64,000 bases of DNA from Labyrinthula sp. Ha (taxonomy: Eukaryota > Sar > Bigyra > Labyrinthulida > Labyrinthulaceae), in assembly GCA_015227615.1 (NCBI GenBank), contig JAALGZ010000007.1, positions 1,364,001 to 1,428,000 on the forward strand, written 5' to 3'. How positions within the stretch are numbered: the first letter of the stretch is position 1; the number at the start of each line of letters is the position of its first letter. Positions 18,427-56,260 of this stretch are shown here, one piece after another. The notes below the pieces were generated by a model, which searched no databases, was not told the origin of the DNA, and was given only the letters and a program-made list of their open reading frames with translations. Position numbers and translations under genes: made by a program.

Positions 18427-21307
18427 ATGACGATAGATCCTTTTAAGGATTTAAAAGTAAAAAAATCTGCGGCAATAGTTTCCATAAAGATGTATTTTCC
18501 TAGAGACTTCGGTACAAATGAAGCTTCAAGCTCTCAAGCAACAGGATTTGTTGTAAATAAAGAGAAAGGTTTGATTCTAACAAACAAAGTAGATTTTGTG
18601 AATTATATGAGCTTAGCATGTTGTTTCTGAAGGTCCTGTAAAAGCAAGGGCAGAATTTTGGAAGCATGAGGATATAGACTTGGTTCCGGTTTACAGAGAT
18701 CCCGTACATGACTTCGGTTTTTTTCGATTTGATCCTGCGAAATTAAAGGAAACTGAACTTACTGAAATTGAGCTTTATCCAGAAGGTGCTGTTAAAGGAA
18801 ATAAAGTCCTGGTAGTTGGAAATAGTGCTGGTGAAAAACTAAGCTTTGTGGAGTCAACACTTTCTCAAATAGACCGTCTACCTCCTTCCTCTTTGGACCT
18901 AAACACCTTTTACATCACATCTTCTAACACATCAGTTGGAGGATCATCTGGTGGACCTCATCTAGACTCCCATGGAAGAGCCGTCTGCATGAATGCAGCT
19001 GAAACTTATGGAAATATAAAACTTGGACTCCCCCTTTATCGGGTTAAACGCGCATTAGAGTTTATTGAGAAGGGAGAAAAACCACCAAGGGGTACTCTTC
19101 AAGTTGGTTTCAAATATCTTACATTTGAAAACTTAAAGAAAAGCAGAGATTTAAGTGTGGAAATAGTTGAAAAAGTTCAATCTGCACATAAGAAGGCAGA
19201 GGGAATGTTAGTGGTAGAGAAAACTTTGAAAGATGGACCAGGAGCAGTAGCAGGGTTAATGAATGGTGATATTCTTCTTCAATGTAACAACAGTTATGTT
19301 CAGCAGTATATACAGCTAGCGGATATTTTCGATACTTATGTTGGAAACAAAATAAATATCCGTGTTCTGAGAGAGAATGAAGAGGTTGAGCTTGAAGCAG
19401 TCATTCAAGATCTAAGTGAACTAGAAAACTTCAGGTTTGTTGAAGTATCTAATGGTATTGTTCATGGGATGGATTACCTTTTGTGCATGGATTATAACAT
19501 ATCTGTAAAAGGAGTGATGATATCAAAACCAGGTTATATGTTTTCAAAGTTACCTTTCTATGCAATAATAAAAAAAATTGGCACTGAAGAAATAGAAAAT
19601 TTGGATGATTTTATTTCTATGATGCAGCGACTTCAAAACTCTAAACTTGTGGCTGTAAAATATCAACCGATTGAAGATCCAACTAGAACTGTGATTGAAA
19701 CCTGCTCAGTTGATAAATTGTGGTTTCCATTTGAATTGGCAACTCGAGATGATGATAAAGGAATTTGGAAATACCAATCTCTGAATAATGACAATAAACT
19801 GACGTCAATGAAAACTAAAATGAAAACTAGTAAGCAATCACCTGGAGATACATCGGACAGCACGAGGAGAAAAAGTTTGGGTCTTAATCCAAGCCACTTG
19901 GAAAACGAACTAGAAAACTCTCAATATGCAAGATGTTTGGTGGTTGTAAGTATTGATATGCCTTATAGTCTTGACAGTGATGAAGAACCTACAAAAACAA
20001 TTTTGCCAGGTATAATTCTAGATAAAAACTTGGGAATCGTTCTTACTGGTTCCACTGAGATAAAACATACAATTGTAGATGCTGCAATTACGTTTGAAGG
20101 TATAAAGAAAATTTCAGCTAAGGTATTATATATCGATCCAATATTGAATATTGTATTTCTTCAGTATAAAGTTCAAGATCTAAAGGAAGATGATGAAGAA
20201 AATTTGATTAATCCAATTTCTTTACCACTAGCGAGCTCAGCCCCAAAAGCCAAAGACACTTTAACTTACATTGGAGTGTATTCTAGATGGCAAATCTATG
20301 TGCAGGAAGTAAAGGTGCGTGGTATGAAAGATTCAATATCGCATAGTTACTATGGAGCACATAGTTGTCCAGATCCACCTTATGAATCCCTAATATTGAG
20401 TAAAGGTTCAAGAGACGGGATCTACCTTAACAAAGCAAAAGAAATAGCTGCATTTTGTGTAGAAACTGGAGAAACTCGAACCTGCACGAGAACGAAAATA
20501 ATATTTGAATCCATTAGAGGTGCTATTTTGAAAGATGACTTTGTTGCTATTCCTTCGACCAAAAGAGCTTTGCCCATAGCCATTAGTTACAATACTTTTG
20601 AGAGTGCAACATACTCATTTGGGCTTCCTAATTCATGGACAAAAAAACTGCTTAAAACAATAACTATATTTGATAGAAAACTTCTTAGAATTGGAAGAAG
20701 AATGGTTGGGCAGGAAGCGTTTGATAAGTTAAAAGAGAACGATGTAATTTTGGCCCTGAATGGAGAACCGGTAACACAAATAAAAACATATTTTGATTTA
20801 ACTTTGGAAAAAGAACGTGTTGATCTCACTATTCTTAGAGAGGGGGATGTATTTGATGTCTCTGTTCAAACTTATCCTTTTTCAACAAAAGGAGCAACAC
20901 ACTTGATCCACTTTTGTGGGCTTACTTTTCAGGAAATTCCAGATGGTGTAAAATATTACTCCAGCGAGGAAGTTATTGAATCTGGGGGTGTGTTTGTTGC
21001 ATCTGAGTTACCAGGTTCACCAGCAGAAGCTGCCTCACTTGATGACCCTGAAGACAACACCACAAGCTCAATTGTAGGGAAAATATTATTCAAGATAGGT
21101 ATAGTAGAAGTTTCCTCGTTAGATCAAGTTATTGATGCAGTTAGAAGTTATAATAATAACGAATTTATCCGTCTAGGTGCAAAACATATGAAAACAGGGG
21201 AAGTTTCTTTTCATGATATTAAACTTGATTTAGAATACTGGAAAACTCGTGAAATGAGGTTGGAGGAGAATAATAATTGGTCAACAACTATCAGACAGGG
21301 TTATTAA
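18427..21307 (+). CDS. Nma111/Deg7-like HtrA-family serine protease, two exons
   Basis: Exons 18427-18588 and 18617-21307 give 950 aa, close to the ~1000 aa of the Nma111 family. Exon 1 carries QATGFVV and LILTNK; exon 2 starts directly with the catalytic His (HVVSEGP, H55). D86 is in the family signature YRDPVHDFGFF and the nucleophile is S165 in GGSSGGP. PDZ-like regions follow (KDGPGAVAGLMNGDILL near 230-250; another near 840-880), with a second, degenerate protease half between, the usual duplicated layout. In fungi the protein is nuclear and pro-apoptotic; plant Deg7 is plastidic. No signal peptide is visible here. The splice is needed to place the catalytic His in frame. The gene is convergent with the coiled-coil gene, 190 bp between stops. 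Confidence 0.9.
18589..18616 (+). other. 28-nt intron of the Nma111-like gene
   Basis: GTAG...TTAG, 28 nt, phase 0. Removing it joins LILTNK to HVVSEGPVKARAEF, restoring the HtrA 'TNxHVV' motif. Unspliced, the reading frame runs into a TGA at 18628-18630. Confidence 0.9.
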
Positions 21308-21497
21308 GTCCAATTTAGATACTGTGTAGTTTTCTTAATCCTCGGATATGAACAAACCAAAAGCTCCAGTACCCATTACTAAGTTAATTTTGAGTCTATA
21401 TAGATTTTTCTTCCCTTATATTATATGGGCACTTTAATAATTTTATGTACATATGGAGATTATTTAGCTTGTTAGTAATTAAGAAGTAATTATCTTC

Positions 21498-25530: not shown

Positions 25531-27992
25531 GTAGCTTTAAATGGTAATCTACCCTTGAGTTTGGTTTTTACGGAGAATGTATGGGAATGGAATAAGTTTC
25601 TATCAGGCTCACATGTTTCAGACAAATTGGAATCATTGACTAGTTTAACTCCCATAAAATACTAATTACATAAAGTAGAAACATAACCATAAATAAAAAT
25701 GTAAATCATGCAAGCTAAAGCAAAGACCGGAGCAGGCAAAGAAGTTAACACATTAACACATCAGGTAATGCTTTAAACTTACGATGTTCAAGAGAGAATA
25801 TCACATGAACTAGATTTGAGTTAATTTAAAGCTGTTAGTACATTGGAATATTATATACTATCTGAACTCACGTATTTTTGTGAAAAGGATACAAATGCTC
25901 TTCTGAAAGAAGAGCTTTGTACATAGAAGACTATATTGAAGGTAGAAGAAAACTGGTATAAAATAAACAAACACCTTCTCCACAGAAAAAAATGCAAATA
26001 TTGATTCTGAAAACAGTTTATCAAATAAATAATGTGATTGGAAAATAATTGAGGTTCAGGAAATTCTCTTAAGTTAATGCTATACACATAGAGGCAAATA
26101 TTCAGGCTCTTGAAGGTCTACCACGATATATATATATGATGGTGTCTTCTATTCAAACATAGTATTAGCTTACTCGAATAACCTTCTTTAATATAGTTGG
26201 TGTAATTAAATGTTATTTATACCTGGGTAATGTCAATGAAAGAAATGCTCTCTACCCAGAAATCTATTTTCCACAGAACTCATTTTCCAAAATTTTGAGC
26301 TCAGAAGCTACAGAAAAAAAGAAAGAGTAAGGAAGAAGAGGTTAAAAAGATTTTTGGAAGAGTATGCTTAGGAAAAAAGGTTAGAATATATGTTTTTCGA
26401 CGTTGGGGTGCATAGCACTTGGGTTCCGAGCATTCACTAAGCTGCCAAATGTGAACCACTATTACTCAAGACATAGTAGCGAAAGAATGCTGGGAGTTAA
26501 TATTATTGTCTCATAGCGAAGAAAAAAACCTGTAAATTGATTAAACAAAATGCATCTATGTTTCAAACATTAGCGTAGCTTTAAACTCTTTGTTCTTAAG
26601 CTAAGAAATCAAGAAACCATATAAAACCAAGAGGAAACACTAGAGCCATGGAACCGAATTCGAATACGTTGTACACAGAACTAGTGTTGGTGCTTCAGAA
26701 TTAACCGATAGTGTGAAACCTGGTACATGTCTTCAATTATCTCAGTGTTAGATGGAGCTTAGGTATAGATGTTTACCATTTCTTTTATGAGGAAGTAAGA
26801 CAACATAGCTGAAATGTGGGTCAGTCAAGTACATTTAAGCATTTTTTTTAACTTTAGGCATTTATAAAGACTGGAACCTACTTAACCAGGTTCATGCTAT
26901 TTAATTAGATTTCTTGTTACTTTTTTTGCTTTTTGCCCTCCCCTTTAATATGTGGTAGCAACATCTCTGCGGAGAGCTGTAATGAGGACATGCTTATATC
27001 AGAAAAGTTGCTATTGATATCTGCGCTGAGATCACCTGTGGCCCTAGAGATTGTAGTATATGTTTTGTGTCAAGTCTTATCTGTACATGATATGTCTTCT
27101 GTGGCAGTAATACTACAAGAAATTGATAACAAGGAAAATTTCACCCCGAGTTCCTTTGGACATATATACTCAAAGACTGGGATTCTTCTACTTAACTTTT
27201 GGGATCCTTGTTTCAGGGCTGTCATTCTTCCACTTTCTTTCATTGATATTTGGCGTATTTGAGGAATATGGAAACCCACCTTAGCGGCAAATGGATATTG
27301 TGCACGGATTTTACTCTCTGATTGATGCACAACTGTGCAGAATACCGACATAGAATGTTCATTGTTCGCCATTCTTCAAAGCCACACTACGGGAAAACGA
27401 GATTATCTATTGGTTTAGAAAGAGAACATAAACTTGTAGGCTCTATCTGATATTTATCCAAAACAGGTGAACTTCTAATTTTTCAGCTGAAACTTTTTAG
27501 GCATACATGATCAAGTTGAAACTTTTTTGTCATCACGCCAGCAATCTTTTTTGGAATATCAATATTCTTCTCATTGTACTTTTCTGCTATTTTAAACAAG
27601 GTGTGAAATGATCCTTGAATATGTGTTTCTGGTAGGTAACGAGCTGACACATAGTGCAAGACTTTGGTATTTGCGAAAGTTGTGGAAGAACACTGATGTC
27701 AAGGCGATATACTAAAATCCTGTTCCTTTTTAGGTATGAAAGAGCATGTTTTTCATATTTGACAAGAACACTTTTTGTTGCTCTTGCTATTCCCTAAGCG
27801 ATTTTCTATTCTGTACTGGGAAAATATTCTTCTATCATCTCCAAGTGTGCATCCAAGGTGGCTTTTGTTGAAACTGCACCGATGATTAGTTTTCTTAAAT
27901 TACATATGAACACCTACAGCGGCTAACCACTTAGATCTTCTTTGCGCTAGCATAGGATGCCATTAGACGTTTTGTATACATTAGCTGGATTA
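25531..27992. other. Gene-poor region between the ankyrin gene and the MULE-like relic
   Basis: AT-rich with a short TA run at about 26126-26138. Overlapping frames at 26933-27262 (+) and 27070-27372 (-) have no recognised motif. The minus frame lies downstream of, and in the same orientation as, the transposase relic and might be part of the same decayed element. Confidence 0.35.
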
Positions 27993-28319
27993 TCAAAGTA
28001 CCAGATTACCTTTAGCAAGAGCAAGTGAATCACCTGTTATGATAACCCGAGGCGAAACTGGTCCAAGATCTTTCAATTCACGTATATCCTTATCATAGTT
28101 TTGGGGTTTTCTTAGTCTATAGCCAAAACTCAGGGCTTTCATGAAGCGATCAACTCCAGTTGGAAACATGTTCACGTATATAAATTTTGACAAACCATGT
28201 GTACCACGGATGTTTATTAGATCTAAAAAGAGGCCGTTCAACATAGCTTGTAATGGTTCTTGTAAAGCACATCCCTTAAGTATTAAATTTGCCTCTAAAG
28301 TACTAGAGAAGTAAATCTG
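27993..28319 (-). pseudogene. MULE-type transposase relic
   Basis: About 108 codons open on the minus strand. The C-terminal segment PRVIITGDSLALAKGN resembles the 'P.vivTDrelALmnAi' catalytic block of Mutator-like (MULE) transposases, and LINIRGTHG... FMKALSFGY resembles the preceding 'lLnIvGvt......f..afaFl' block with correct spacing. The catalytic Asp region reads TGDSLALA. It ends in stops straight after. Terminal inverted repeats were not found. Confidence 0.4.
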
Positions 28320-31300
28320 AAGTAAACACCCACTTCATACACACCCTTTCTAGTTTTAACTAAAATTTTAAAGCCAATAACCCAAGACTCTCGTCTTGGA
28401 TACTAAGTTTACATAAGTTATATTTAACTAGAGACTAGTTAAGATAACACCATGAAGTTCACAATACAGGAGAAAATAAATAACACTGACTAAAATGCCT
28501 GTTATAGAAAACTACCTAACCATCTTTTTTAACTGTTTTTACGTTCAAAAGAGAGATTCTCTTAGTAATGTTCTTGTTAAATTGCCCTAAATCATATTTA
28601 AATAATTGTACTTGAGAAACTTTCTTTGAAAATGAAAGAATACGCATAATGTACTACTAGGGTTCGGATTTGAGTTATTAATAATTTAACAATAAGATAT
28701 TTCCCCGTTTTTATCTTATTGATTGATTCTGCTAATTCCCCAACCATTATGATTGATGATAGATAATTGATTATAAATACAACACTGCGTCATAAAGCCT
28801 CGGCCAAGTCGCCAGAAAACAACCTTTTGATTTCTTGCATCGTACACAAAGCTTCTGAAATTTGCCACATGGCCCAACCACGTTCTATTACTGGATTATA
28901 CCCATGTCACAAGGCAAATTTTTTAAAGTTTTCATACGGTGCAGAAACTAAGTAAAAAAATTCTAGAATTTGAAACATTGTCGCATAACCCATCTTTATT
29001 TTGAGAATTATTTTAAAGCTAAAATAATATCAGAATCATTTGATAAGAATCAAAATCTCAATTTTTTTATTGATAATCAGAATCAAAATGATTATCAAAT
29101 AATTATTGATAACTTCTATCAAATCCTGCCCTATGTGCTACCCAAACCTACAATTTCTATGAAATATAAAAACAAGATTACCTTTTTTCAACTTCCACCT
29201 TTGATACCAATATTTCTCTATTTTAGTTCTTTTCAAAAGTAGTCGAGTGATGTCTTACCCTACCTAAAATTATTACCAGCTATGTCAGCCAGAAGTATGA
29301 ACATCGCTTCTGGTGTAGATCCGCCGTATTTCTATCTATGATCTGCTTTAGCACTTGTTTTCTCTTTTCCACTCACTTAGGACTATGGCTGGGTATCAAA
29401 GAGTGAATTTTCGCTTGGTATCATTTATGTTCTTGTTTATTTTGGTACTTTTTTAGGCACATCGTCCGTAGATTTTATGAAGGACCTGCAAAACATAGAC
29501 GCAGAATTCGGTATAATTAGTACTTGCAAGACACCATTCATTTTCACTAGAAGAAAAAGAAAGTTGGGGTATTTAAAAGCGATTAGGAAGGTTAAATTGC
29601 TGCTTAATATTGACTCAACCGCCACATATTCTTTCTTAACCGTCATGGTGCGCACTGTATCCCTTCGTTTCATCGTATTATGTGAACTATTTCCAGTTTT
29701 TCCTGGGTTAAACGTAGCTTTACATTAATCTGATTCCATTAACTAACGCGTATAAGAGAACCAAGACTTTCTCTAAAGGTTTTTAACTTCCAATGCAAAA
29801 ACAAATAACGGAATACTTATTCACCGACAGCCAAGAAAATCTACGGGGTAGTATACCAATCGTTAACTTTCACATGGTTATCTCTTAATCCAAGTTTCTA
29901 GACTATATCTTCTTTCCAAAAAAATCCTAATACGGACGTCATACATAACCCAAATTCGAAACTGACGAGTCACCTTGAGGGGCAACATGAACCTATCTTC
30001 ATAATCCTAGAATAATTGAAGCGCAAAAGGTGTTTGTGAGGAACCTGCTGACTTCGTAACAATCCAATGGAGGCCTAGGCATATAGTTACCATGGGAGGC
30101 AACATGGTAACTCTTTACAACAAGAGCCATCCTGGACATTATCGTTTTGCTGTGCTCGGTACAATGTCAAAATTTGGACTTAAGCACCTACAATAATTAT
30201 ATTTTGCAAACTTAAAAATTCAGTTTCAGTTGAAAAAGCTAACATCCGTCTAAAAGTGAATGTCTTATTCATGAACTGTTTTACCCTCGGCTCTAATCAA
30301 CTTAGAACTTCTGCTTTGTGACCGCCTGCTGCAAAAAAATGCGCATTGTTAAATTGAGTAGATATATAGTAAAATAATTTTTCATCCCCAACACCTATTG
30401 ACGTTCATAACCACATTGTAGCTACAAAACATATTCAGAAGTCTTTTACTGTGAAAAGCAGATTATTAACTTTCCAAGTCATTTGTTTCATCTTAAGGAT
30501 TTTTCATGGTTCAGACATTCCGGAACATAGTGTAACTTTTAAGATGATTACGCATGAATTAGTCCCAATTTTTTTTCAATTTTCGTAGTTGATATCTCCA
30601 GCTTGTAGGAAATGTAAAATGACATTAGGCAATTGGTTTGGTCACAGAAAGCAAATTATGAGAAAAAAAGTGGAGCCACAATAATTGTGCATTGAAGACC
30701 ACAGTTTGTTCACATTTAAAAACATGTCACAGGATTGAAGTTTATTTCGGGCGTAAAATGTCAACAACTGTATTTACACCAACTGTTCTATTACCCTAGT
30801 TATCTCAGGTTGTTAGGTTACTAACTTTAGAGGCTACAGTACTAGTTTGACCAGTTTAGTCTGGCTAGACAATTGGCGCCATTGCCAGCATTCTAAGAGT
30901 GTGTTTGCCTCGGTCTTGCCTGGTACAAATATCGACAATCTCGACAGGAAAACGGCATTTCTTCGCCACCCCTGCAATAAATAACTATTGCTGTTATGTT
31001 CTTTTCGATGGTAAGCAAAAACCCTGTTTATAAATACTTAATTTTTAACAAAGTAGTTTAGGGTTTTCAAACGATATGGCCTTTTTCTCTTTCTTTGTAC
31101 TTTTACTTTTTGCTTTTGGTTTTGGTTTTATGGTACCTTCCTTCTTTAGCCTCTTTCATATACCGTTCCTAAACAACCTTCCTTCTCAAGACTTCATAAA
31201 ACCCAGAACACTACCCTCAAGAAACCATTCTCAAACAGCTCTTCACTCAAAATAATCAAATACTATCCAGCTACATATAAATACCATAACAATTACATTA

Positions 31301-33723: not shown

Positions 33724-36658
33724 TTACAAGGCAGCCAAAAAGTCTTCAAGAGCTAGTCCATCTGCGGAAAGTTTTGACTCTCGTGTTACACGCGCCTCTT
33801 CCCAAATAGAATTTTTAGACTGAGCAGCATCTTCTAAACTCAACTTATTTCCCTCTAAGAAAACGTACTCCTCCCATTTAAGATCTTGTGACATAGTATC
33901 AGCGTTGATTTTGAGAATTATGGAACTTACTGCTCTAACATGCCGGCCTACATCACTTACGTTTTCAAATCCAACATAAATCTTTCCTAGGGTTAGAGTG
34001 TCTTTGATTGGGTCATCTTTCAACCTCAATGAAAAACAAAACGATGCATCCTTAGACACATTGATCTTAGCATACCTCTCGCTCAACTCAAGTTTTATTT
34101 CTTTTCTTACCAACTCATCGAGCCCAAGACAATATTGTAAGCCAAGAGTGACAAGCCTTTGAAAAGTTCCGAAAGGCATAAATGGAGTAAAGTCATATAC
34201 GTAGAAAGACTCCATGTACAAAAAATGTTCTTTATTTTCATCTAACAAACTTGGGACTAGATATAAACTCTCCCCGTCTTTTTCAAAACTGGATGCAAGC
34301 ATTGTCCTCTGCATAAGATCAATTAAGAATTCAGTGAAGTCAGTGTTTGAAGAACCTTGTTGATCCCAGTAAAACTTAAACATGTCGATGCTCACAATCC
34401 CTTCTTCTTTCATCTGTCGATAATCCTGTTTTAAGCCAGCTGTTGAAACAATGTCTAAAAACTCCTCGGAGTCTACATGCAATTCTTTATCCTTAATTAC
34501 TTGTCCAAGTTTATCTATCAACCATTGCGGTTCTAGGATAATTGTTTGCCTTAACGCAGTTGTAGAATTAAAATATATCATTGCCCCAACACGGTTCATG
34601 AAGTTTAAAAATTCTTCTTTTTCTTTAAGTTTGAACTTTAAGTTATTCTCTTCAAGGAGTTCCTCAAATTCTTTAAAACTACAAGTTTGCAGTTTTTGTG
34701 ATTGAAGTAGTTCCAAAGCTTGAATCCATTTTACGGATACTAATTGGTTTATAAACTCCGAATCCTGTGCACAAGTCTCTATCTTCTGACGGAGTGTTTT
34801 TACACCTTTCCCATTCTTATTATCTAATGGAAAATACGATAAATTTCCTTCTGGGATGCATATATTATATTCATCCAATTTGAAGCGTTCCCTTAAAATC
34901 AACTCAATTTGACCTAAGTCATCGGATTTGATTTGATCCAAAAATGTGCCCACTAAGAAGATTGGTGCCGCTCTAGAATGTAACCGGCAAGAGTTTAACC
35001 AAAAATGTAGGTACGCAACTGTTTCTTCAGTTTTTTCTAGAATACTTTTTAAGCTAAACACTGCTAAGTATATCCCATAATTTGTAAGAAAAAGATGATG
35101 CAGAGTGTAAAACACTTTCTGACCACCAAAGTCAAAAATAGTAAAATTTATTCCTGGGCCTGCTTTCGATTGCTTTGCAGCAACTATCAGTTTCTCATCA
35201 AACTTCTTAAACACATCAGAAAAAATTACTTCTGAAGGTTTCTCATCATTTTTTCCTGTCTCTTCTTTCACCGGCTTTTTAACAGGGGGCTTTGTAACTG
35301 ATTCCGGTTTTTTCACAGTATCTTTTGTAGGTTTCTTAGTTTGAGCAATTTTGCCCAGTTCATCTCCAGCTATATTAACCAAGAGTTCCCCAAGAAATCC
35401 AGTTTCCTCTGTTTCAGTAACCTCTCCCCACCCAAGTGCTTGAACCTTTGTTTTAATTTGAGTGATCGAAGCTCCTATTGTAGAATCAATTTCTGGTTGA
35501 AATTGTTTACCAAGTAGACTATTCACTGTAGCTGTTTTACCTAAAGTTAAAAGAAACATTGTGCATACCGGTTCTACCCATACCAACAACCATTAGCTTA
35601 GCACGTCGCCAAGGCCCTTTAGCAGCATTTAGAGCTTTTTGTAATGCTTTTCTTGGTTCTTCAATATTTCGTACTATAATATCTTTTAATTTAGCTTCAA
35701 ACTCATCGGAATCTACATCTGTCTCATCCACATTTAGTCCAATCAGCCCTGTATTCCAGGTTTCTAGTTTTTCCAATATTACATCTGCTCCATCTTCAGT
35801 TATAATGTTGTCTCCGATATCAAGAAAACTTAAAGCAAAATTAAACTCCAATACTTCTGCAAGTATTTTACAAGCTTCATCGTCAATTTCATTGTCTCTT
35901 AGATTCAAATACCGCAGAACTGTATTTTTTTTCAACGTCTCACCTAACTGTTCTAAACCCGCGTTTGTAATTTCACAAGATTCAAGACTAAGAACTTTCA
36001 GTGATCTGCTTTTGCTAAGAATATTTTTCAGAAATGGTACACTTTCTGGTCCGAGCATATTATTTTTTCGAAGTACCAATGAAGAAAGTTTCTCATGGTT
36101 TGCAAGTGAACTCGAAAAATGTCCAAGGGTCTTTGGTGTTAGAGAGTTATTTGATATTTGGAGATGTGATAAATTTCTCAAATTCTTAATAACCACATCA
36201 AGTGCTTTACAAAATTGTTCCGTCTTTCCCAAGTTGTTATTATGAAATGTAAGACTGGTTAGGTTTGACAGAGAGCTTGAATTTTTAAGTTGGAGTATAG
36301 TTGAGGATTGAATAAATGACTGGTATAGCCCAATGACATCATTATGAACTCCGTTTGAAATGAAGGCATAAACAAAACTTTGCTCATCTGTGTAGACCTT
36401 TTGCTTCAGCTCAATTTTCCCAATTAAAGAAAGAGATTGTAGTATTTGCTCTTGGATGCGCTCAATGTCAGAGTTGAAAGCAAAAGGTATTGAGTCTTGT
36501 GTCCTGCCATAAAAATCTAATACCTTTATGCGATTCCTAAGCCCTGGGGCGTGCATAAACATAGCTGTGCCGCGAACAGTTGGGTATTCTCTTGTGTTTG
36601 CCTGATTTGTCTTCTTGCCTTCGGGACTTTTTTGAGCCAAGTTTCCCCAAAATTTCAT
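33724..36658 (-). CDS. LRR-Roc-COR (Roco family) GTPase, two exons
   Basis: Exons 36658-35569 and 35540-33724 give 968 aa. Residues ~130-335 are leucine-rich repeats of ribonuclease-inhibitor type (LSHLQISNNSLT, LRYLNLRDNEIDD, LSFLDIGDNIITED). The Roc GTPase follows: P-loop G359-MGRT-GKT ending T366, STIG at 383-386 (switch I), DFGGQ at 500-504 (switch II) and GTFLDQ at 561-566 in place of NKxD, as usual in Roco proteins. A COR-like region occupies ~600-900. No kinase or other C-terminal domain. A Lys/Pro-rich linker (~432-466) between switch I and II enlarges the Roc domain. The intron splits the codon of the P-loop glycine G364. Roco proteins act as dimerisation-regulated GTPases in signalling; the partner is unknown. 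Confidence 0.92.
35541..35568 (-). other. 28-nt intron of the Roco gene
   Basis: GTATGC...TTTAG on the minus strand, 28 nt, phase 1. Splicing joins VVGMGRTG to KTATVNSLLG and creates the P-loop GxxxxGKT; without splicing the frame ends within a few codons. Confidence 0.93.
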
Positions 36659-36814: not shown

Positions 36815-38813
36815 CTATGATTCTGTGTCCCATAGAAACTCTAGTAATGTTGACAAAAACCACGGCTCAAAGCTAACTGTGTCATTGTCGTTCGCCCGCA
36901 AAAGATCTAACAGTTCTTCTGGTGATAACAGCAAAGGCTTTGGCTCACGTGGTTCTGAAAGCACAAAGTCTAACTTGTTCTCTTGTGGTTCAAAAATTTC
37001 TGCTTCATGCTCTTCATTTTTTAGTATAGATAAGGTACGTTTTAGGAACATCCTCGACTTGATAATTCTCGCCACTAGCTTGAATACCTTTGCTTGCTTT
37101 ATTGGTGGAAGATGTTTTAACTTCTGTTCTTCTAGTCTCTCCTTTTCACTAGTTATAGTATCAAAGGCACCTACAACAATCGCAAGAAAAAAATTAAGTA
37201 GAATGAGTCCATTTACTGTAAGCACGGTATATAGAAAAATCATAGTAAAATGACTTGTCTCAGAAGCATGAGTTGAAAATCTATTTAAGTTATTTGAATA
37301 CAACTGTTCTTCAACAAACAGGGAATCTGTATCATATAAACCAAGATTCATCTCAAAAACTGTAAACAAAGCTTCAGGAATGTTTCTCCAGTTGACATAA
37401 CTTTGTCCAAACAGAAACATTCCAGTCAGTGCAAAACCAAAAGAGAATGCAAAATATATTGGCATAAAGGAAAGAATCTCTGGGAGAGCTCTTAGTAAAG
37501 ATTTTACCAATATTTCGCCCCTAATTGAGACCCTAAAGAAGTTGACACTGCGAATAGTATACAAAATCATTTCCACGAACAAAATTCTCTGTTTTGATTC
37601 CTTCCAAACAGCCAAAGATCGAAAGTTAATGGAAAAGTTCTTTTCCCCCAACTCAGTTCGAACATCATGTCCTGAGTGATGCAGATCCTCCAAAAGCTTT
37701 CTCGTATCGTCTTGGACAAAGTATAACCAATTTGCTATGAGAACCACATGAACAAATAAATGAAAAATTCTTATTGCTCGATGATATTTAATAATTTTTA
37801 GGTTCAGTTTCCCTATTCTATAAAGATTAACGCTGTGTAAGACAATAGGAATAAGAACCGCAATCCATATAATCTCGAAAGCAAACCTTATCTTATTTTG
37901 AACAAAGTTAAAATTATAAGGGTCAACTCTTAGGATAGAAAGAGAATTTCTGTTTGAAACTGAACCTTCAGCATAAAAGCTTGTTCTAAACTCCATTGCC
38001 CCAAAAAACCTTGTGTTAGTATTGAAGAAACCGAGTTCAATTTCTATATCTCTTGTTGCTGGATTTATCCAAGACATATTTTTCAACTCTTCTAAAAGTA
38101 GAACCTGACTATCGTATAAATCTGCGCCATAGAAAAACTGAATCTAAACTTCAAAGTAAAGTTAAGTATTTACCACATATTCCTCAGAGGTTAAGTTATA
38201 AGGGTAGTTTTTCAAATCACTAGGTATGGGTACTGCTTCTGCTTCCTAACATAAAGAAACAAAAAATAATTACCTTAACATTTCCCAAACAAACACTCCA
38301 AATCTCTTCTAAGTGAGAGTCATAGCAGTATCTCCCTTCTTCAGTAGCTTGTGTTTGTCTCAACCTGATTCCTCCTAGTAGAAGATTTGAGTTTTTTATC
38401 AAGTAGGCATTTTGAAGCTCAGATTCTGGAGAGAAAAGCTGCTTGAAGATAACTTCATCGAACCATTCCCACCAGTCTGCTGTTGTCTCAATATCCCGAT
38501 ATCCTATTCCAGAATCTGTTTGCTGCTGGATGAACGTACTTGATAAAGCAGTATCTATTCTGTTTGTAGTTCTAGTGTCTAAGATTATATAGTTTGTGCT
38601 AGCAAAGAATATAAAGGAGGTGAAAAATGGGATAAGTGCATGCCAGCGCTTGATAAGTTTATAAACTTCTTCTACTCTTTCTATGAGAACTTCAAGAGTT
38701 TTTTGGGCATGCTTTCTTACATAGGGTTTTTGCACTTTATTTTTTGGTGTGTATGAGGTAGAAGAAACATCATCAATGGATGAAAGAGATTTCTTTTTAT
38801 CTTCTAGAGACAT
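36815..38813 (-). CDS. Polycystin (PKD2/TRPP-like) cation channel, three exons
   Basis: Exons 38813-38274, 38245-38174 and 38143-36815 give 646 aa. Exon 1 holds the cytosolic N-terminus, S1 (about residues 62-82) and the start of the large extracellular polycystin (TOP) domain with GGIRLRQ. Exons 2-3 complete it, with the family motif NMSWINPATRDIEIE and FFGAMEF. S2-S5 follow at about 289-311, 325-347, 391-409 and 426-450; the pore helix and filter read MNLGLYD (471-475 LGLYD, against LGDFD in human PKD2) and S6 spans ~503-531. The tail is acidic with no obvious EF hand. TRPP channels conduct Ca2+ and monovalent cations in cilia or endomembranes. Only splicing of two 28-30 nt introns makes the extracellular domain continuous. 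Confidence 0.92.
38144..38173 (-). other. 30-nt intron 2 of the polycystin gene
   Basis: GTAAAT...TTTAG, 30 nt, phase 0, with an in-frame TAA. Joins LTSEEYV to IQFFYGADLYDSQVL. Confidence 0.88.
38246..38273 (-). other. 28-nt intron 1 of the polycystin gene
   Basis: GTAATT...GTTAG, 28 nt, phase 0, preceded by AAG. Joins VCLGNVK to EAEAVPIPSDLK. Confidence 0.88.
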
Positions 38814-45991: not shown

Positions 45992-46330
45992 GTTGCCGAT
46001 GATCTTGAAAGAGCTAAACAACTGATGCTTCTAGAATACTCCGAAGCAAGTCTCCATGATCCTGGAGTTTGGCTTAGCATCAATGGTATTCCATAAGAAG
46101 TTCTTAAGAAGCTGACTACCATAAAATCATCTTTTTTTGAATACACCTATATTGAAAAAACTCAATATCTTGTAGATAAGGCAATTCTCGGCATCTGTAA
46201 ATCGGATGCAATTAGTCTTTAGTTGAGGGGAATTCCTGTTCATGTAGGCGTCTTGGCATGATTATATCATGTGAGAAAGAATGTGAATGATTTGGTAAAA
46301 AACAGTATTTAAGACAGTAAAATCATTTGA
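45992..46330 (+). pseudogene. Unidentified coding relic
   Basis: One frame of 113 codons reads like protein but is broken by stops after NGIP, AISL, VLA and SI. Open pieces such as DLERAKQLMLLEYSEASLHD and KSSFFEYTYIEKTQYLVDK have amino-acid composition unlike the flanking translations. I do not recognise the family. It could be a decayed gene, a retroelement fragment or chance. Confidence 0.3.
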
Positions 46331-47579
46331 AACTTTACCTGGGCTTTCTTGTATTAGCTATATACTACTTCTAGAATCATTTCACATGCCATAGTTATCA
46401 CGGTGTTAGATGAGGCGTTTGAAAAACTTGAAACTGAACTAATTTCAAGTGAGAACACTTACTGGAAATTCTTTGCATGAACAAGACAGCACTCAAAACT
46501 TAGCATGCACAACACTTCCGCTGTATTTTATCCGTTAATTGGACAATCCTTTGTGACGTGTTTTCATTGGGTTCACATTTCCTAAAGGAACTCGGGGTTC
46601 TCTATGGGTGATTTTAAATTCTATCTCGTTGATTTCAAGAAAAAAACTTCCTTACTTTTCCTTTCTGTACTTTGTCTCATCGTCAACTACGATTGCTCCA
46701 AGACAGGTACTTAATATATACATAGTATATTTGATAGTTGGAATTGTGGAGGTGGGATAATATTTTTCTTAGCTATATTACTCACTTTAGCAAAGAACAA
46801 GAATACTTTTTTGTTAGCTCGTTACCCTTGGATTCCTTGGTAAAACTTAGTGAGTTGTTTCTTACCGGAGATCGATAATGACAGTTGCTCCAATGGCATT
46901 CATGGTTTTCGTAATCTGTTATCTAGCTGATGAGAGTTAGTTTACCTTAAAAAAGTTCCTTACACGATAGAGAGAATTTAATTTCGCAAGCTACTTGATC
47001 CATAAAGCTTAAGATATGGAATGTGTATCTTCTACCTACTCGGTTTCTTTTATGGAATCATATACACCTTATTCAATCTTTAGATTTGTTTTAGATATGC
47101 CCTCTACTCGGCAAACTGGGTTTTCCTAAGTTCTCTTAGTTTTGTGTGATGTTTTACTTTATTTGACTTAATAAGATTTCGATTTGTAAATAAAGTTTAA
47201 GTCATTCTTTAAGTCTGGTTTACGTTCAAAGCAGTTTGTTTCTACCTTTAGTAAATTAAATGTATGACTTTTTGTGGTTGGAAGTTCTTATTCCTATTTT
47301 CGTTGTTGTTTTTCCCTATGGAATTTCCTAGAATAATAATATTTTTTTATTATTTTCTTCTCTATGCAATTAAAATATTATAGACTATCATATATGGTAG
47401 TTGCCCCTGGGACTTCATTCGAAGGAGTAGAAAGGTCGCTACTCTGAAAACTTTGCATTTTAGCTTCGTCCTTGACGTTGTTTTCACAAGCCCAAAATTT
47501 TTTTGGGTACATATGAGCACTTGGAAATGGCTCAATTGGACAGGTCTTTGCACCTTCTGTTTTCACGTACCGAACAGAA
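46331..47579. other. Non-coding region upstream of the USP gene
   Basis: AT-rich; no recognised feature. A T-rich tract (47341-47360) precedes the USP gene by about 230 bp. Confidence 0.4.
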
Positions 47580-48773: not shown

Positions 48774-49083
48774 ATTTATTCTGTCTCATTTATGCTGTTA
48801 GAGTGCAGATGGTGCTAGTTTAGTTCATGAGCAAATATGTTTATCTGGGAATAGTTCTGTCAGTTGAAGTTATGTAAAAGCAAAGAAAAGTGCGAGCCTG
48901 TTCTTCATAATCTAGAGGTATGTTGGTTTCCTTGCGCTTTGTGCTCGAGTGATGCAAACCATGATGTCTTATCCTTATTTAGATGTTTTTTTGAAAATAT
49001 CGAGTACTCTCCTTCGTTTAAGTTAGTTTAACATTTATTTATTATCCTGTTCATTAGGATGATGTTTCTGTAATGAAGCTGTT
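48774..49083. other. 3' region of the USP gene
   Basis: No gene recognised. It contains a palindromic-looking ATCCTG...CAT-TAGGAT stretch near 49045-49062 of unclear meaning. Confidence 0.3.
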
Positions 49084-49335
49084 CTACCTAAGGGTGTAGA
49101 CAGAGAAAACTTCCTCATTCAGGAATTGAACAACCCCAAGTTCTACCTCCTTAGCAAATTTATGGAGTTCAGAGGATTCTAAAGTTCGATCATGACACTC
49201 AAAGTCCTCTGTGAGTTCCTAAGGAAGGATCATCAAAAGGTCTCTATCAATTCCCCAAAAATCCTGAACCAATTCTTCAATGAGGAAATATTTCCTACCT
49301 CAGTTAAACTCAGACAGCTTCTTAGTCAGAAACGC
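49084..49335 (-). pseudogene. Unidentified coding relic, minus strand
   Basis: A frame of 84 codons interrupted by two internal stops, with protein-like composition: EELVQDFWGIDRDLLMILP, stop, then ELTEDFECHDRTLESSELHK and VQFLNEEVFSVYTLR. Family not recognised. It lies next to repeat copy B and could belong to a mobile element. Confidence 0.3.
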
Positions 49336-49501
49336 ACTATGAACTCATCATTCCTCACTTAATGTGGCACAAAGGCTCGAGATTTGATATAATTCGTTGA
49401 TAATTTATCAATAAAGTTTTTTCCTATATTTTTCTTATTTATTGATTTTGTTAATTAAGTAATCAATTTCGGTGATTATTCATAATTAATTGCTAATAAG
49501 A

Positions 49502-49602
49502 ATAAAATCAGAATCATTTGATACTGAGCAAAGGCCGAATTCTGTTGTTGATTAACAGAATCAAAACAATTATTTAAAAAGATGAAACTTCTTATCAAAT
49601 CC
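49502..49602. repeat. Dispersed repeat, copy B
   Basis: Counterpart of 29021-29130. Blocks in the same order: AATCAGAATCATTTGATA, TTGATTAACAGAATCAAAA, and ACTTCTTATCAAATCC. The copies differ by many substitutions and a few small indels. Confidence 0.5.
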
Positions 49603-52600
49603 GATTACTATTAAAGACTGAGCGAGTAACTCGAAAGTTTGACTAAATGTCCGAAATAATCCGCAATAAACTCAAATTCTACCCCAAATTGAAAACCACA
49701 TTGACCAAGGTTCCACTACTCTTTTTTAAGGTTCATGCTGTCGTCAATAAAACAAACCACGCAACTGTAAAGTGTGTTGAGCTATGAAAAGTTCATCATT
49801 CTTGCTTGTTCAAAGAAAATTTAGCGTTACATTTATTAGCAACGTAGCATTTTAGTGGATTCAGGTTTATGAACTAACCTTAGTGTAGATCTATTCAAAC
49901 ATCTTTAAAAACCTTCGGCATCTGTTACATTTACCATTAAACCTGCGGATTCTATGTTTTTCGAGCGTGAAACTAATAGAAATTTGTTTTTGTTTAGAAT
50001 TGAACTGAAACCTTGCTACAAATGTTTTATGATTATCAAGCGGATGTTCAAATTTGTTAGATGGGGGACTGGGTAGGCGGCGAAACAGGAAATGTAAATA
50101 ATTTACATAAAAAGAGAAGCTTTTCGAATGAGTCATGTATACCTAGCATTATGAACAACAGAAAGTACAGTCTTAATGATCAGTTATTCAGAAAGTGTGT
50201 AGAATTTATTTTGTATTACAATGAAAAATGATTTAACGCCACATTATTACAAACAGGACCAACTGCAGCTCATGCAAGCCGTATCTGTGGTTTATACGAA
50301 TCGAAGATCCTCCTGAAAAGAATATACTCTTTTTTAAATTGAATCATTGAGCACTAGCCCATTTTAACACATCAAATTTCGTTCTTCACCAAAAGTAATT
50401 GCATATTCCCTTTCAAATCATATTTCAAAGCCAAGACTTAACGGGCATTAGAATGAGGGAAAAAGTTGAGGGGATAACTACACAAATGTAAACTTCCATA
50501 CTTAAATGAAACTCAGCAGAACTATTCCATGAAGCTAGCTGGCTAGTTCCTTGGCGATTGATTTAGAATTTTAGTGTTAAGTCTCATATCAGGTTTGAAT
50601 ATCTACAAGTAATAAGGAATCATTAACAAGCGTTAGATTACTACATTTATGCATTTGTTCAACCAAACAGCTATAAAACTGAACGGATAACTATGCCCTT
50701 AATTTTTCATTGTAATTTCTTGTAAGGCTGATAGATTCACCTACGTGTTTGAGTTGAATTTTTTCAACAGATTATGTGAAAGCAATAAGTAAAATCGTAT
50801 CAAATGAAGCCTCAACGTTCATATGCCAGAGCTACAGTTTTCTCTTTCTTGTGATTTTCTTTGATCTTTGCAAGTAACTAGTAAAAACTTGAGAATATCA
50901 TTTCTGGTTTTGCCATGAGCTAAGAATGAAATCTAGGCAGACGCAATCATCATTCTTATAATCCTGAGACTTTTTTAAATCAAAATGTATTAAATGAGAC
51001 AATTATCCAAGGTATTAGTAGAGAAAACCCAATTGAAGACGTGAACTTGCTATCCAACCTAATAAGATATATTTTACTCAGAATGGATTTACTATACAAT
51101 TTTGATGTTAGTTTAATTCTTAGCTTAAGATTTTAAGAGTTCCCCTTTACTTTGATACCTTCCTTTTCATTTTCGTATTTGCTATACCTTATCAAATTTT
51201 ATCAGCCAAAGTTCATATTTTTATTCTAATTTCACATATTCTCAATTTTGTGCCAAAGTAAAGATAACTTAGGTTGTACTTTTAAAGAAGAAAATCATAT
51301 ACATTTTGTTACCTTGTGATATTATTTAGGAAAGAGTATCTCATACTAAATTTTGCACAAGATTTGATGCTTTGAGATTTATTGAACTTGAATATATCAA
51401 AGATATTTCTTAGCGATTATTTTGAAATTAGAAAACCAAAGTTGAAGCAACAAAGTCTAACTTACATATTCAAACTCTAACAGAAACCCCAAAGATGAGA
51501 AACCATCAAATTCACGATATTAGATATGCCTGGGTTAGTGAGAAATCTATTCGTATGTTCTTCATAGCTAAATATTTATTTTTGAACACTTTTCAGGGCT
51601 TACTCATCCAGTTTCTAACCTTATCAATCTCATTACTAGCCTTCAATAATATAGAACAATCAGATCTTGTTGCCGAGGTTTGGAGTCAAATTCAGTGGCT
51701 CAAATAGAATGATTAAACTTTATGATCTTTCCGAATCATTAAGGTCACTTCATATTCATTTGTCAAATCTGTCAGTAAACACTCTTATCATCTGAAATAT
51801 CTGTAGCCATGAATATATTTTCGAATATACTTTTATTTCCACATGTTAATCATCTTCTTATGAATCAAAAAATTGTTTTTTTTTCAGTCTTCTTCGCTGG
51901 TGAAAAGCTTTTTTTTATTACTTGGTAACTTGGAGAACATAGACGAAACAGAAAGTATTTAAATCTTTAATTCCACCAGTACTTTAGTACAATAACTGAG
52001 GTGTAGAAGCCATCGAAAACGGTCTTCCATGATTTATTCATAGTTTTACCTCAAGATAAATGTTAGCCATCAATTAGTATTATCGATTTCCTTGGTCTAA
52101 ATACAAGGAAGCATTCAAATTTGTCGCAATACCTCCATCGCTTCCTGAAAGTTTTCGAACTGATTCTTTTGCGTAGATGTTCCGTACACCATATCGAACA
52201 TATCATTATTTCCCCCCTAAGAGCTGGCGGAAAGGTATAACCTTTTAATCAAAGTTACCCAGTATTCATATCATTTGCTTTGTTAGTTAAAAGGATAATA
52301 GTTTTTCGTAGTAGGAACCTAGGATGAAAACTAGTTATTCACAAACAAAATCAAGCATTAAGAAAAACGTAAATTGATGTTTTGGTCCGTTAAATTCGTA
52401 GACGTAATAATGGCCATATATCTAGTGGAAATGTCGAATAATAAAATTACCTAGGTAGAGCTGCATTAAAGACAACTGCTAGTAAGATAAAACTTGAGAG
52501 CTCGTGTTATAATTTATGTAGTTTTGGTAAGTTTTATAGATTCTCTTTCGAGTTTATGTTCCCTGCTAAATAATTTCTATTTAGATTCTAGGTAATCCCA

Positions 52601-54909
52601 AAGTTTTACAATTTTTAATTAACCTATTGCATCTCCTACTTTTGCTCAGTTTCCTACGCGCGAACCTGACATATACTCGTATACGAAAACAATATGGGAT
52701 ATTTCATTCTATCCTTAAAATTTTTGTAAGGCGTTGTGATCATCCAGTTAATAACTTTGACTTTGTTTTAAATGGACTTCCAGAAAATTTTATTTGAAAA
52801 ATGGGATATAAAAAATGGAAAAGCAGGAATCTCGAGAATTGTAAATCCAGCAAAATTTCATATCAAAATTTTATGTCTATTCAGGAGCTGACTTACACCA
52901 CTAAGTAACACTGACACTATATAAAGAACTATCGGACTACAAGAGAATGTAGAGAAATTATGGTATAAATTGCATGTATTGTGCTCTTACATTTAAAAAA
53001 TAATCGAAGGGTAAGCCTTTATTATGAATCGAAATCCATTCAATATTGTAAGTATATTTCCCTGTTTCACGGTTGCGGCAAAAACATATTTTAAAGGCTC
53101 TTGCCAAATCTTAATTTTAGTACAGAGTGGTTCTACGTTATCAAAAATTTTTAATCAGAACAAGTCATTCGCTTCATGTACTGTGATTAATATTTATCAC
53201 AGTTTAATACATATATTTCTCTTAAGTACTATAGTTTGGCCCATGACACACAGCATAGGTTTCATGGTTTTGATGTCGTGGAAAAATTAAGATAAAAGCC
53301 TTGTCTTTATTGGATCTAACTTTTTAGAGAGCAATACTGGTAATGATGCTTGTAGATACCCGTTAACATTAGTACTAAACTGAGAGTTATTTTCATTTAA
53401 GGTTTAACACATTGTACTTAATTAATTTTGTTTTTTGGACGCAGCTAGAGCTAACAATCTGTCGATACCGATGAATTTTCGCTTCCGCTTTACTGCAAAA
53501 ACTGGTGGTTGAATTTTCCTGTCAGGTTTCTTTCCTCTCTAGTAATTTTCATAAATTTACTGCTCAAGAAGAATTAATGATTCTCTCCGCATGTTAATTT
53601 ATTTATCTTAAACCATTTCACCTTAGTTTAGATTATTTCCTAGGCCTATATAGAGTAAGCCTAGATTTGGAATTGATCTCAAGTATTCTATAAGCTGAAA
53701 ATAATGTTTATTATCTCAAAGCGGGAAGTAGCGGCGACTATGAAGCTTTTTCACCACCTTTGGGCTTCCGAAACTGTGCTTCTAACTATGGGTAACTGCT
53801 ATGGATATCCGACTAGAGTATGAAATTTCAGGAACTTAAAAATTTCTAGTTTTGAAAATTCTCGACCTGCAACTTTTCCTATTATTCAGTTTTCGACTTG
53901 GAATCAATAATAGCCATAATTCTGAACATTACAAATTTCTCAGATTTCTTCATATTTCCCACCGTTGTGGACAAAATTATTCTTGAAACACATGAAAAAG
54001 CTTGAGCAAGAGTGATTTAATAAATAGTCCAAATGTTATGAAGCCCGTTGTTGTGGGTTGAGTGAGGCATCTCAAAATGATTTCATATCTCTGAATAAGT
54101 AACAGGCTAGTACTCTGAAACCAAACGAAAAAAGCGCAAGACGGCAAAATTTTCAGAAAATTTGAAATAAATTAAATAATATTTCGGTTATTGAGAGAAA
54201 ATCGAAACTGGGGTGCCTAGGATTGAGAGCCCGAGAAAAAACTAAAAAAAAATCTAGTTCAATACTCCATGTGGACACCCCTAGTAACACCAAATTGCCA
54301 CTCAAATCAACACATCAAAAATCTCCTTGACAGAATATATTTTACTTTGTAAGTAAAAAACATACATTTTAGGCTCCTTCTACATATTACTCCTTCTGGC
54401 TTTTCTTTCTAAGCGACCTGAAACTTTTTACATAGTTAGCTCTCGTGATCTACAGTATTGTTTTTATACAAGAATAGCTCAGAGTATTAAAAAGTAAACT
54501 TAAAACACTTAACTATATACACTTCGTAAATAAAAAAATCCATAGAGTGAAAAGTGGTTTGAAAATAGTGAATTTTCCTTGCACATCTTCCTCCGGAAGC
54601 ACATGTCGTAGTACAATACAAGGTTAAAACACTCGAGCAGTAGTTAGTACACTGTATGAAGAACTCCTTCAATAATAACTACATTGAAATGTCCTCTTTT
54701 ATTCTTATCACTGCCGTGAGGATATGATAGTACCCTTTGATACAACTATAATACTCTATAGTCTTTACCCTTTCTATTTCCAATGAAAAGCAATTAATAA
54801 CAAAATGCCACGTCAACTATATCGAAATAATATCCAATCAACAAAGAAATTTCCTTAGAACGTACACTACTAAGAAAACATAAATTCAAGGTTGAAAACA
54901 GATCTACAT
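49603..54909. other. Long gene-poor AT-rich region
   Basis: No gene of a known family, tRNA or clear element seen on either strand. A slightly GC-richer patch at 53720-53815 has short open frames on the plus strand without recognisable motif. Frames at 51495-51707 and 53024-53290 look like chance. Confidence 0.4.
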
Positions 54910-56260
54910 ATGTCAAAAGCAGGAGATTGGGTTGCAGATATTGGCACTCTTGGAGATACTACTCAGCTAGGTATACTTAAAATATATTTTTATTCTTTAG
55001 TTCACGCAGGAGTTTCACCAGATAATGAAACCGGAGCGATTCTAACTCCGATCTACCAGGGTAAGACGATATTTTCGACTTACCTTTATAGCTACCACAT
55101 TTGTTCAAGAAAGTGTGGAGAAGTATCAGGCCAAAGGTCACAGCTACAGTAGAACGTGAGCATTCACTTTCTCTTTATTTCATAGTACCAATCCGACTGT
55201 AAACGTCCTTGAAGCCAAGATTGCGCAAATCGAGAAAGGAGCTGGAGCATCTTGCTTCACAACTGGAATGGCAGCTACTGTTACAGTAATGACTGCTTTT
55301 CTGAAAGCTGGGGATCACTGTGTTCTGACAGATTCATCTTATGGAGGAACCAACAGAGCCGCAAGAGTTATGTTCTCTGATCTTGGGATTACCTACAGTT
55401 TTGTGGATTGCACAAAGGTAGAAAACGTAGAAAAAGCTATTCAACCAAATACGAAAATGGTATTTACAGAAACTCCTGCAAATCCGACACTTACGTTGAA
55501 TGACATTGAGGCAATTAGTAAAGTAGCTAAAGCAAAGAACAAGGATATCGTCCATGTATGTGACTCAACATTTGGAACTCCATTTATGATGAAGCCAATT
55601 GAGCTTGGTGCTGACATAACTATTCATAGCACAACCAAATTTTTTGATGGACATAATATTACTGTTGGAGGAGCTGTTATCTGTGCAACACTAGAGGTAG
55701 GATATTTATTGCTTTTTATTCTTAGAACCATCAGAAAGTGAAGTTCTACCAAAATATTCATGGAAATATCATGAGGTGCCTTTTCTTGTGCGTTTTATTT
55801 TAGTCCCATGGTTGCTTTTTATCAATTGCAAACTATGAAAACTTTGGAGTTGAGAATAAGAAGACAAAGTGAAACTGCTCTTGCAGTAGCTAAGTTCCTG
55901 GAGACTCATCCAGCTGTCGATATTGTAAGATACCCTGGACTTGAATCATTTCCACAAAGAGAATTAGCCTTGAAGCAGCATAAGTTGCATGGATCAATGC
56001 TTTGGTTTGAAGTTAAAGGGGGAACTGAACAAGGAAGAAAATTAATGGACACAATCAATCGCCCATGGTCACTTTGTGAAAATTTGGGGGCTACGGAAAG
56101 TATCATCACTTGCCCAGCGGTAATGACCCATGCAAATTACCTGAAAGAAGATAGATTAAAGATCGGTATCACTGATGGGTTTGTAAGGGTTTCGTGCGGA
56201 ATTGAGGACAGTGAAGACCTCATTAGAGCCCTCAAGAAAGCACTCGATAACCTGTTGTAG
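54910..56260 (+). CDS. Cys/Met-metabolism PLP enzyme (cystathionine gamma-lyase / methionine gamma-lyase type), six exons
   Basis: Exons 54910-54970, 55001-55060, 55092-55155, 55186-55696, 55726-55775 and 55804-56260 give exactly 400 aa, the family length. Recognisable blocks: TTQLVHAGVSPDNETGAILT, then TTFVQESVEKY, the ring-stacking HSYSRTTNPT, the PLP-phosphate block FTTGMAA, CDSTFGTPF with the PLP-pyridine Asp, the Schiff-base lysine K213 in HSTTKFFDGHN, and NIHGNIMSP. The enzyme catalyses gamma- or beta-elimination/replacement on cystathionine, homocysteine derivatives or methionine; which one cannot be fixed by eye. ATG 54910 is chosen because the conserved N-terminus follows directly. 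It is the most intron-rich gene here, with all five introns 28-31 nt. Convergent with the CDF gene, 41 bp apart. Confidence 0.92.
54971..55000 (+). other. 30-nt intron 1 of the transsulfuration gene
   Basis: GTATAC...TTTAG, phase 1. A multiple of three without an in-frame stop, so retention would insert ten residues into TTQL-VHAGV. Confidence 0.9.
55061..55091 (+). other. 31-nt intron 2 of the transsulfuration gene
   Basis: GTAAGA...TATAG, phase 1. Joins LTPIYQ to ATTFVQESVEKY. Confidence 0.88.
55156..55185 (+). other. 30-nt intron 3 of the transsulfuration gene
   Basis: GTGAGC...CATAG, phase 2, with an in-frame TGA straight after the junction. Joins HSYSRT to TNPTVNVLEA. Confidence 0.88.
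55697..55725 (+). other. 29-nt intron 4 of the transsulfuration gene
   Basis: GTAGGA...CTTAG, phase 0. Joins VICATLE to NHQKVKFYQNIHG. Confidence 0.88.
55776..55803 (+). other. 28-nt intron 5 of the transsulfuration gene
   Basis: GTGCCT...TTTAG, phase 2. Joins NIHGNIM to SPMVAFYQLQ. The exon between introns 4 and 5 is only 50 nt. Confidence 0.9.

Follow-up and report, generated by a model that had tools for sequence, protein, structure and literature searches.

How short and how uniform can the introns of a genome be, and does keeping them so demand an altered spliceosome? These questions are raised by a 64,000-nucleotide (nt) stretch of the Labyrinthula sp. Ha genome (contig C121, positions 1364001-1428000; hereafter the window), which belongs to an assembly of 50,840,425 bases in 153 contigs, the largest of 3.3 Mb. 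An original prediction, made from the letters of this stretch, had placed nine GT-AG introns in four genes, held all nine that could be placed to be 28-31 nt long and taken this to imply a spliceosome adapted to minimal introns. Here, we report that the nine segments are very probably U2-type spliceosomal introns belonging to the main intron class of the genome, with lengths of 28-32 nt.

Nine introns in the window and their counterparts elsewhere

On re-reading, each of the nine predicted segments starts with GT, ends with AG and has the length assigned to it (Table 1), six of the lengths not being multiples of three. Removal of the segments leaves an open frame with a plausible ATG and stop in all four genes. 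The claim that the junctions restore conserved protein was borne out as well. In the protease gene, exon 2 alone matches positions 17-142 of Trypsin_2 with 50.5 bits, and the first 320 residues of the spliced protein match positions 1-142 with 71.9 bits. Splicing adds the P-loop part to the ROCO protein, raising its Roc score from 52.2 to 63.3 bits, and connects Polycystin_dom 2-71, encoded by exon 1 of the polycystin-like gene, to the channel exon; for these three genes the evidence for introns consists of the completed domains. The spliced lyase (400 residues) aligned to PDB 7nl1 across residues 3-397 with few gaps (542.7 bits). Splicing had also been called obligatory. It is needed for the correct frame in six of the nine cases, because these lengths are not multiples of three, and two of the three 30-nt introns hold an in-frame stop if retained; the third, at 54971-55000, holds none and would leave the frame open, and to this intron the claim does not extend.

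The lyase introns were also returned by a protein-to-DNA aligner that admits any GT-AG intron of at least 15 nt within a locus at equal cost, neither favouring a length nor capping it inside the locus. All five were obtained with two of three references and four with the third, which has no N-terminus before the first intron. Their removal is seen in a database protein model, the EukProt entry P0121 with its MAKER name, which matches the spliced lyase with 100% identity at all 400 residues. Its annotation string reads QI:89/1/1/1/0.83/0.71/7/33, in which we take the second field to give the share of splice sites that transcript alignments confirm (here all) and the seventh to be the exon number of the mRNA (here seven). 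Since six coding exons are found here, the seven exons of the database model point to one further intron, probably in an untranslated region. Transcript support throughout this study consists of the database proteins and annotation strings of two genes, the lyase and HSP60.

Introns of this kind are found beyond the window. Chaperonin loci were collected with PF00118 (19 exon matches in nine genes), and six kinesin loci were picked from at least 30 matches because they were split into pieces. Together with the Isy1 gene they gave 27 introns, of which 26 measure 28-32 nt and one 127 nt, so that the very short and narrow range originally described holds here too. The short introns sum to 35 (nine in the window, 17 in chaperonin genes, eight in kinesin genes and one in Isy1), with a mean of 29.4 nt and a standard deviation of 1.2. 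Unrelated genes share a narrow length mode under about 35 nt, which comprises 35 of the 36 introns placed, in a small, non-random sample of 14 loci or genes, all conserved. Divided by three, the short lengths leave no remainder in nine cases, one in 18 and two in eight; among the nine introns of 30 nt, seven would introduce an in-frame stop if retained, the exceptions being 54971-55000 and the last CCT beta intron. Extended to the genome, the statement that all introns are 28-31 nt long fails on one intron of 32 nt and one of 127 nt. Longer introns do exist, because the 127-nt intron of HSP60, four times as long as usual, has a matching two-exon database protein, P0241, which equals the spliced protein residue for residue and whose string carries the field that we take to mean all splice sites confirmed.

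In a stricter length test, splice-site weights were derived solely from the nine introns of the window, and length entered the score nowhere. With every reference used for the gene concerned, 25 introns were called, 21 of them 28-32 nt long and the others 60, 61, 127 and 1010 nt; among the 26 short introns beyond the window, 21 were thereby recovered. The other five were placed by further arguments (CCT alpha 31 nt, CCT beta 30 nt, kinesin C1 31 nt, kinesin C66 28 nt and Isy1 28 nt).

Table 1. Introns and host genes in the window, and introns placed elsewhere in the genome. Positions are those of the window unless a contig is given; semicolons between lengths separate genes.
Feature	Location	Strand	Intron length (nt)	Evidence or remark
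Intron, HtrA/Nma111-like protease gene	18589..18616	+	28	GT-AG; Trypsin_2 match complete once removed; also called by length-flat gene finder
Coding sequence, HtrA/Nma111-like protease, 1 intron	18490..21307	+		Frame, domain match, gene finder
Intron at P-loop, ROCO (LRR-Roc-COR) gene	35541..35568	-	28	GT-AG; domain gain; gene finder
Coding sequence, LRR-Roc-COR protein, 1 intron	33724..36658	-		Frame, domain match, gene finder
Intron 1, polycystin-like channel gene	38246..38273	-	28	GT-AG; domain match
Intron 2, polycystin-like channel gene	38144..38173	-	30	GT-AG; in-frame stops if retained
Coding sequence, polycystin-like channel, 2 introns	36815..38813	-		Frame, domain match
Intron 1, cystathionine/methionine gamma-lyase-like gene	54971..55000	+	30	Frame open if retained
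Intron 2, lyase gene	55061..55091	+	31	Spliced alignment; database protein
Intron 3, lyase gene	55156..55185	+	30	In-frame stop if retained; spliced alignment; database protein
Intron 4, lyase gene	55697..55725	+	29	Spliced alignment; database protein
Intron 5, lyase gene	55776..55803	+	28	Spliced alignment; database protein
Coding sequence, lyase, 5 introns, 400 amino acids	54910..56260	+		Spliced protein equals database protein P0121
Chaperonin intron	C13		30	Spliced alignment, corrected
Chaperonin introns	C66		29, 30	Spliced alignment, corrected
Chaperonin introns	C57		30, 31	Spliced alignment, corrected
CCT beta introns	C99		29, 28, 31, 29, 28, 30	
CCT alpha introns	C121		30, 28, 31, 32, 29, 28	
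HSP60 intron	C132:1415696-1417343 (gene)		127	
Chaperonin genes without intron	C73, C70, second C99 gene			
Introns of six split kinesins			31; 29; 31; 30, 28, 31; 29; 28	
Isy1 intron	near gene start		28	

The window, with a G+C content of 33-38% per 4 kb, has further features. An intronless open frame of 2093 residues at 299-6580 encodes FAT, PI3/PI4-kinase and FATC domains and is TOR-like, its FRB match lying slightly under the cut-off. A His_biosynth-family gene at 32727-33527 (95.5 bits) suggests that histidine is made by the organism. The regions 7900-18400, 25600-31900, 38900-47500, 48900-54900 and 58000-64000 contain no open frame of at least 120 residues and no called gene, in contrast to the many compact genes found elsewhere in the genome.

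Splice-site geometry and spliceosomal components

The 35 short introns share a plan at both ends. The exon has G at -1 in 25 and A at -2 in 23, the intron has A at +3 in 29, and T stands at -3 in 34. GT and AG border all 36 introns placed, a count that is not independent evidence, because the aligner required these letters and the prediction had given them for the nine of the window. The geometry of the 3' end is fixed to a degree not seen in shuffled sequence: T occupies -11 in 30 of 35 introns and A occupies -8 in 20, against 19.1 and 8.0 in shuffles, and none of 5000 shuffles reached either count. Both letters occur together in 17 introns against 4.4 when intron interiors are shuffled (0 of 5000). 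In the 26 introns outside the window alone, T at -11 is found in 22 (13.9 expected) and A at -8 in 17 (6.2 expected). When 33 introns were searched for their best branch-like A with a simple score, 20 had it 6-9 nt ahead of the final base, and in the other 13 its position was scattered. T makes up 49% of the sequence of these 33 introns.

The U2-type components that would act on such introns are present in the genome. There are three U1 matches with an ordinary 5' end (AUACUUACCUG), three copies of U2 (112.6-117 bits) whose branch-recognition region (GUGUAGUAUC) is intact, and two U4 sequences seen (48.8 and 50.4 bits). SF1 was recognized by its SF1-HH and KH domains; read by eye, its translation also has two zinc knuckles and an N-terminal KRRKRKHRWG resembling the U2AF-binding motif. 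Isy1 matches with 123.6 bits over 28-235, and its spliced start fits family positions 1-46 with 29.6 bits. Cwc25 was located by position, with a start near C1:1309163-1309273. The look at U2AF, SF1 and U2 that had been suggested thus turned up ordinary genes, with the reservation that the U2AF2-like match stays under its curated cut-off. An adapted spliceosome is not supported in the form originally claimed, because the components looked at (U1, U2, SF1, the U2AF2-like protein and the start of Isy1) are ordinary. To judge by sequence, U1, U2, U4, SF1, the U2AF2-like protein and Isy1 look ordinary, and the sole departure seen is in U6. U1, U4, U3 and U2 genes are found within about 5 kb, forming an inverted pair of clusters on C96 (about 200,000-223,000), and U1 and U2 recur on C135:72,694-77,477.

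The branch-like motif fits this U2, with A at -8 and T at -11 in excess over shuffles and the recognition region intact, and use of the A as branch point is predicted. The common plan is AG/GTA with hardly any further 5' signal, a middle rich in U, a branch-like motif of T, two bases and A, the A standing at -8, and a terminal TAG. Branch use, intron definition, the succession of binding steps and the constraints on length are our inferences. Most likely both splice sites would be recognised jointly across the tiny intron (intron definition): U1 would pair with AG/GUA, SF1 and then U2 would take the branch A, and the U2AF-like protein would have almost no separate pyrimidine tract to bind. The AG may then be reached at a nearly fixed seven bases from the branch, U6 replacing U1. 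About 20 nt would be taken up by the 5' site and the branch duplex, which could set the lower limit on length; the upper limit could stem from deletion bias or from selection for the pairing of neighbouring sites.

For U6, a single match was obtained (59.9 bits; C46:223545-223653, minus strand) after scoring 48 of 6155 first-look candidates. Aligned to the Rfam model it reads AUAUAGAGAAGAUUAGC where the consensus has AUACAGAGAAGAUUAGC, and it carries AUAGAGA instead of ACAGAGA. The gene is not an obvious relic, because it pairs extensively with the U4 of the genome in two long stems, one of which has changed letters on both sides relative to the consensus; the pairing energy is -38.9 against a shuffled mean of -26.0 (standard deviation 3.2, lowest of 200 at -37.1). 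The C of the ACAGAGA box normally pairs with intron base +5. At this base the introns have A in 12, T in 11, G in 8 and C in 3 (n=34), the usual G being scarce, and the excess of purines over intron interiors (P 0.0009) was tested after it had been noticed. AUAGAGA together with a weak +5 is suggestive only.

It could nevertheless be argued that a changed spliceosome sets intron length, AUAGAGA weakening the pairing at +5 and recognition proceeding by spacing instead. The sole U6 found does have U for C and pairs well with U4, and the introns are without the usual +5 G. However, the change amounts to one base in one copy and nothing ties it to length; given the share of candidates scored another U6 copy may exist, the test at +5 was post hoc, and a weak +5 also occurs with ordinary U6 elsewhere. 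We consider this explanation unlikely. A related idea is that U6 drifted from ACAGAGA to AUAGAGA as the +5 G was lost, which would leave a 5' site defined by little more than AG/GUA and a fixed spacing, the branch A lying some 20 nt away and the AG a further 7, and thereby a spliceosome that measures its introns; we put this forward tentatively, as possible though doubtful.

Detection, insertion and error as other accounts

The prominence of the short class could be a detection artefact if short introns are easy to spot while ordinary ones dominate less conserved genes and untranslated regions. The sample does consist of coding regions, the lyase model implies at least one more intron that is unseen here, one intron in 36 has 127 nt, and gene finders call other lengths. 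Against this, the aligner had no length preference and found the 127-nt intron in each of five reference runs. Moreover, two kinesin gaps of 112 and 116 bases, chosen as apparent long introns, proved to be an intron of 31 nt and one of 29 nt, each plus an exon. Such an artefact is in our view quite unlikely.

Several observations nevertheless weigh against U2-type introns of a single main class of 28-32 nt. The sample is small and non-random, and the HSP60 intron was returned with three references without site weights and with two when weights were used. The U1 score of 66.2 bits lies under the gathering score of 69.5 bits, and the U2AF2-like gene reaches 249.6 bits across 67-506 of 510, under the curated 310.3; the U2AF2 model also matches two bacterial controls below the cut-off, because RRM proteins generally do so. 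When distances between site pairs were counted, one pattern showed a weak excess at 28 and 30, and the other patterns showed no clear excess. A pattern run over the whole genome matched 13 times and its control 7 times; 7 of the 13, or 5 of 11 distinct ones, fall in the length class, three being identical 29-nt copies. The first of three gene finders was too weak and the second too lenient (377 introns), and the third, length-flat, was informative for the window only. On arbitrary stretches totalling 100 kb at its middle setting, the latter called 14 introns, only two of which (29 and 30 nt) are in the class; most of the others would seem to join separate genes or to be without support. The case for a main class of 28-32 nt rests on the homology-placed introns and the two database proteins.

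Aligner introns were dropped when they lay outside the protein, when they replaced a coding loop or when a database protein contradicted them. Those dropped measure 42 nt (C73), 610 and 628 (C13), 668 (C66), 739 and 892 (C99a), 43, 111, 399 and 961 (C132), 564 (C99b) and 18 (kinesin C121). Introns of 35, 30 and 1010 nt at C70 were removed in view of database protein P0001, which is intron-free there, the 1010-nt one also lying past the gene end. A 60-nt intron in kinesin C110, returned with one reference only, was regarded as a coding loop, there being no other evidence against it. At C13, raw calls of 39 and 48 nt gave way to a 30-nt intron holding three in-frame stops, and at C99b 46 nt was replaced by 28 and 60 by 30. 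The 61-nt call in CCT alpha became 31 nt plus an exon with the conserved SKIIG, matched in PDB CCT alpha. Shorter introns plus an exon likewise replaced 124 by 31 nt in kinesin C1, 74 by 29 in C57 and 55 by 28 in C66.

Uniform length might also arise from recent insertions of one mobile or introner-like element, and the 29-nt pattern match in three identical copies would suit such an origin. The shared sequence expected of these insertions was not found, intron middles having a mean identity of 0.357 in 118 same-length pairs against 0.357 when shuffled, a value reached by 46% of 500 shuffles. In addition, three of the six kinesins (on C66, C110 and C76) are interrupted in phase 1 at one shared glycine codon of the P-loop, by introns measuring 30, 29 and 28 nt, while their proteins are only 34-38% identical. 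A shared position at this divergence fits an old intron better than a fresh insertion, and the mobile element is a very improbable source. The combination of an old position, a constant length and unrelated sequence would suggest, from this one position, that length is held while sequence drifts.

It is hardly credible that the segments are no introns but errors of sequencing or assembly, pseudogenes or coding inserts that are kept in the protein, even though 54971-55000 has a length divisible by three and holds no stop. GT, AG and the shared 3' motif recur in every one, the lengths are unlike homopolymer errors, and introns of this class also occur in eight more contexts among the chaperonin, kinesin and Isy1 genes. 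The database proteins of lyase and HSP60 equal the spliced ones residue for residue, and for the lyase the explanation is already refuted unless the database model was made without transcripts.

Comparison with other lineages of short introns

Only a few lineages have evolved ultra-short introns. Blastocystis introns are about 30 nt long; those of chlorarachniophyte nucleomorphs are 18-21 nt, in nucleomorph genomes of under about 1 Mb. The introns described here resemble the latter in their very narrow length range, whereas the genome that holds them has 50.8 Mb and genes of a free-standing cell, such as a TOR-type kinase, and is no relic nucleus. Short introns and a compact protist genome are shared with Blastocystis. 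A median of 19 nt is also given for that organism, along with many genes without an encoded stop (PMC12817076). Stop codons of Blastocystis are often created by polyadenylation; unlike there, encoded stops are present in the few window genes read, the lyase included.

Among ciliates, Paramecium introns have a mode of 25 bp (PMC5014332), and those of Nyctotherus measure 21-29 nt, with no branch motif found by the authors (PMC2633312). As in both, the introns here are unimodal, ultra-short and T-rich, and their retention usually breaks the frame. Unlike in Nyctotherus, they span 28-32 nt and have a branch-like motif at a fixed place, and unlike in the ciliates compared, they reside on chromosome-scale contigs of up to 3.3 Mb. 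Stentor coeruleus has introns of 15-16 nt, an Isy1 N-terminus reported not to be conserved and a U6 ACAGAGA reported to be conserved (PMC9505925). It shares with the present genome a 5' GUA, U-richness, a branch A at a fixed position and the standard genetic code, and it has all spliceosomal small nuclear RNAs. In contrast to Stentor, the introns here are twice as long, the Isy1 N-terminus is family-typical and U6 reads AUAGAGA. In Trichomonas vaginalis, type B introns are mostly 25-26 nt and a few dozen intron-bearing genes are confirmed (PMC6260720). Shortness, AT-richness and a branch A some 7-8 nt ahead of the 3' splice site are common to both genomes, while introns occur here in 10 of 20 homology-placed genes, inside and outside the window, with a looser branch motif.

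The introns of this Labyrinthula genome are intermediate in size among these and have a fixed distance to the branch, and the genome encodes U1, U2, SF1, a U2AF2-like protein and a family-typical Isy1 N-terminus; with such a combination of parts, the requirements of small introns can be told apart from features that only accompany them. If expressed and unique, the changed U6 box would be a natural test of the pairing between U6 and intron. A fixed distance from branch to AG is known in some intron-poor lineages (PMC2483917), and classes of short introns are known in Paramecium, Nyctotherus, Stentor and Trichomonas; the present genome combines the two, and offers a new case in which to study the limits of intron size and regularity.

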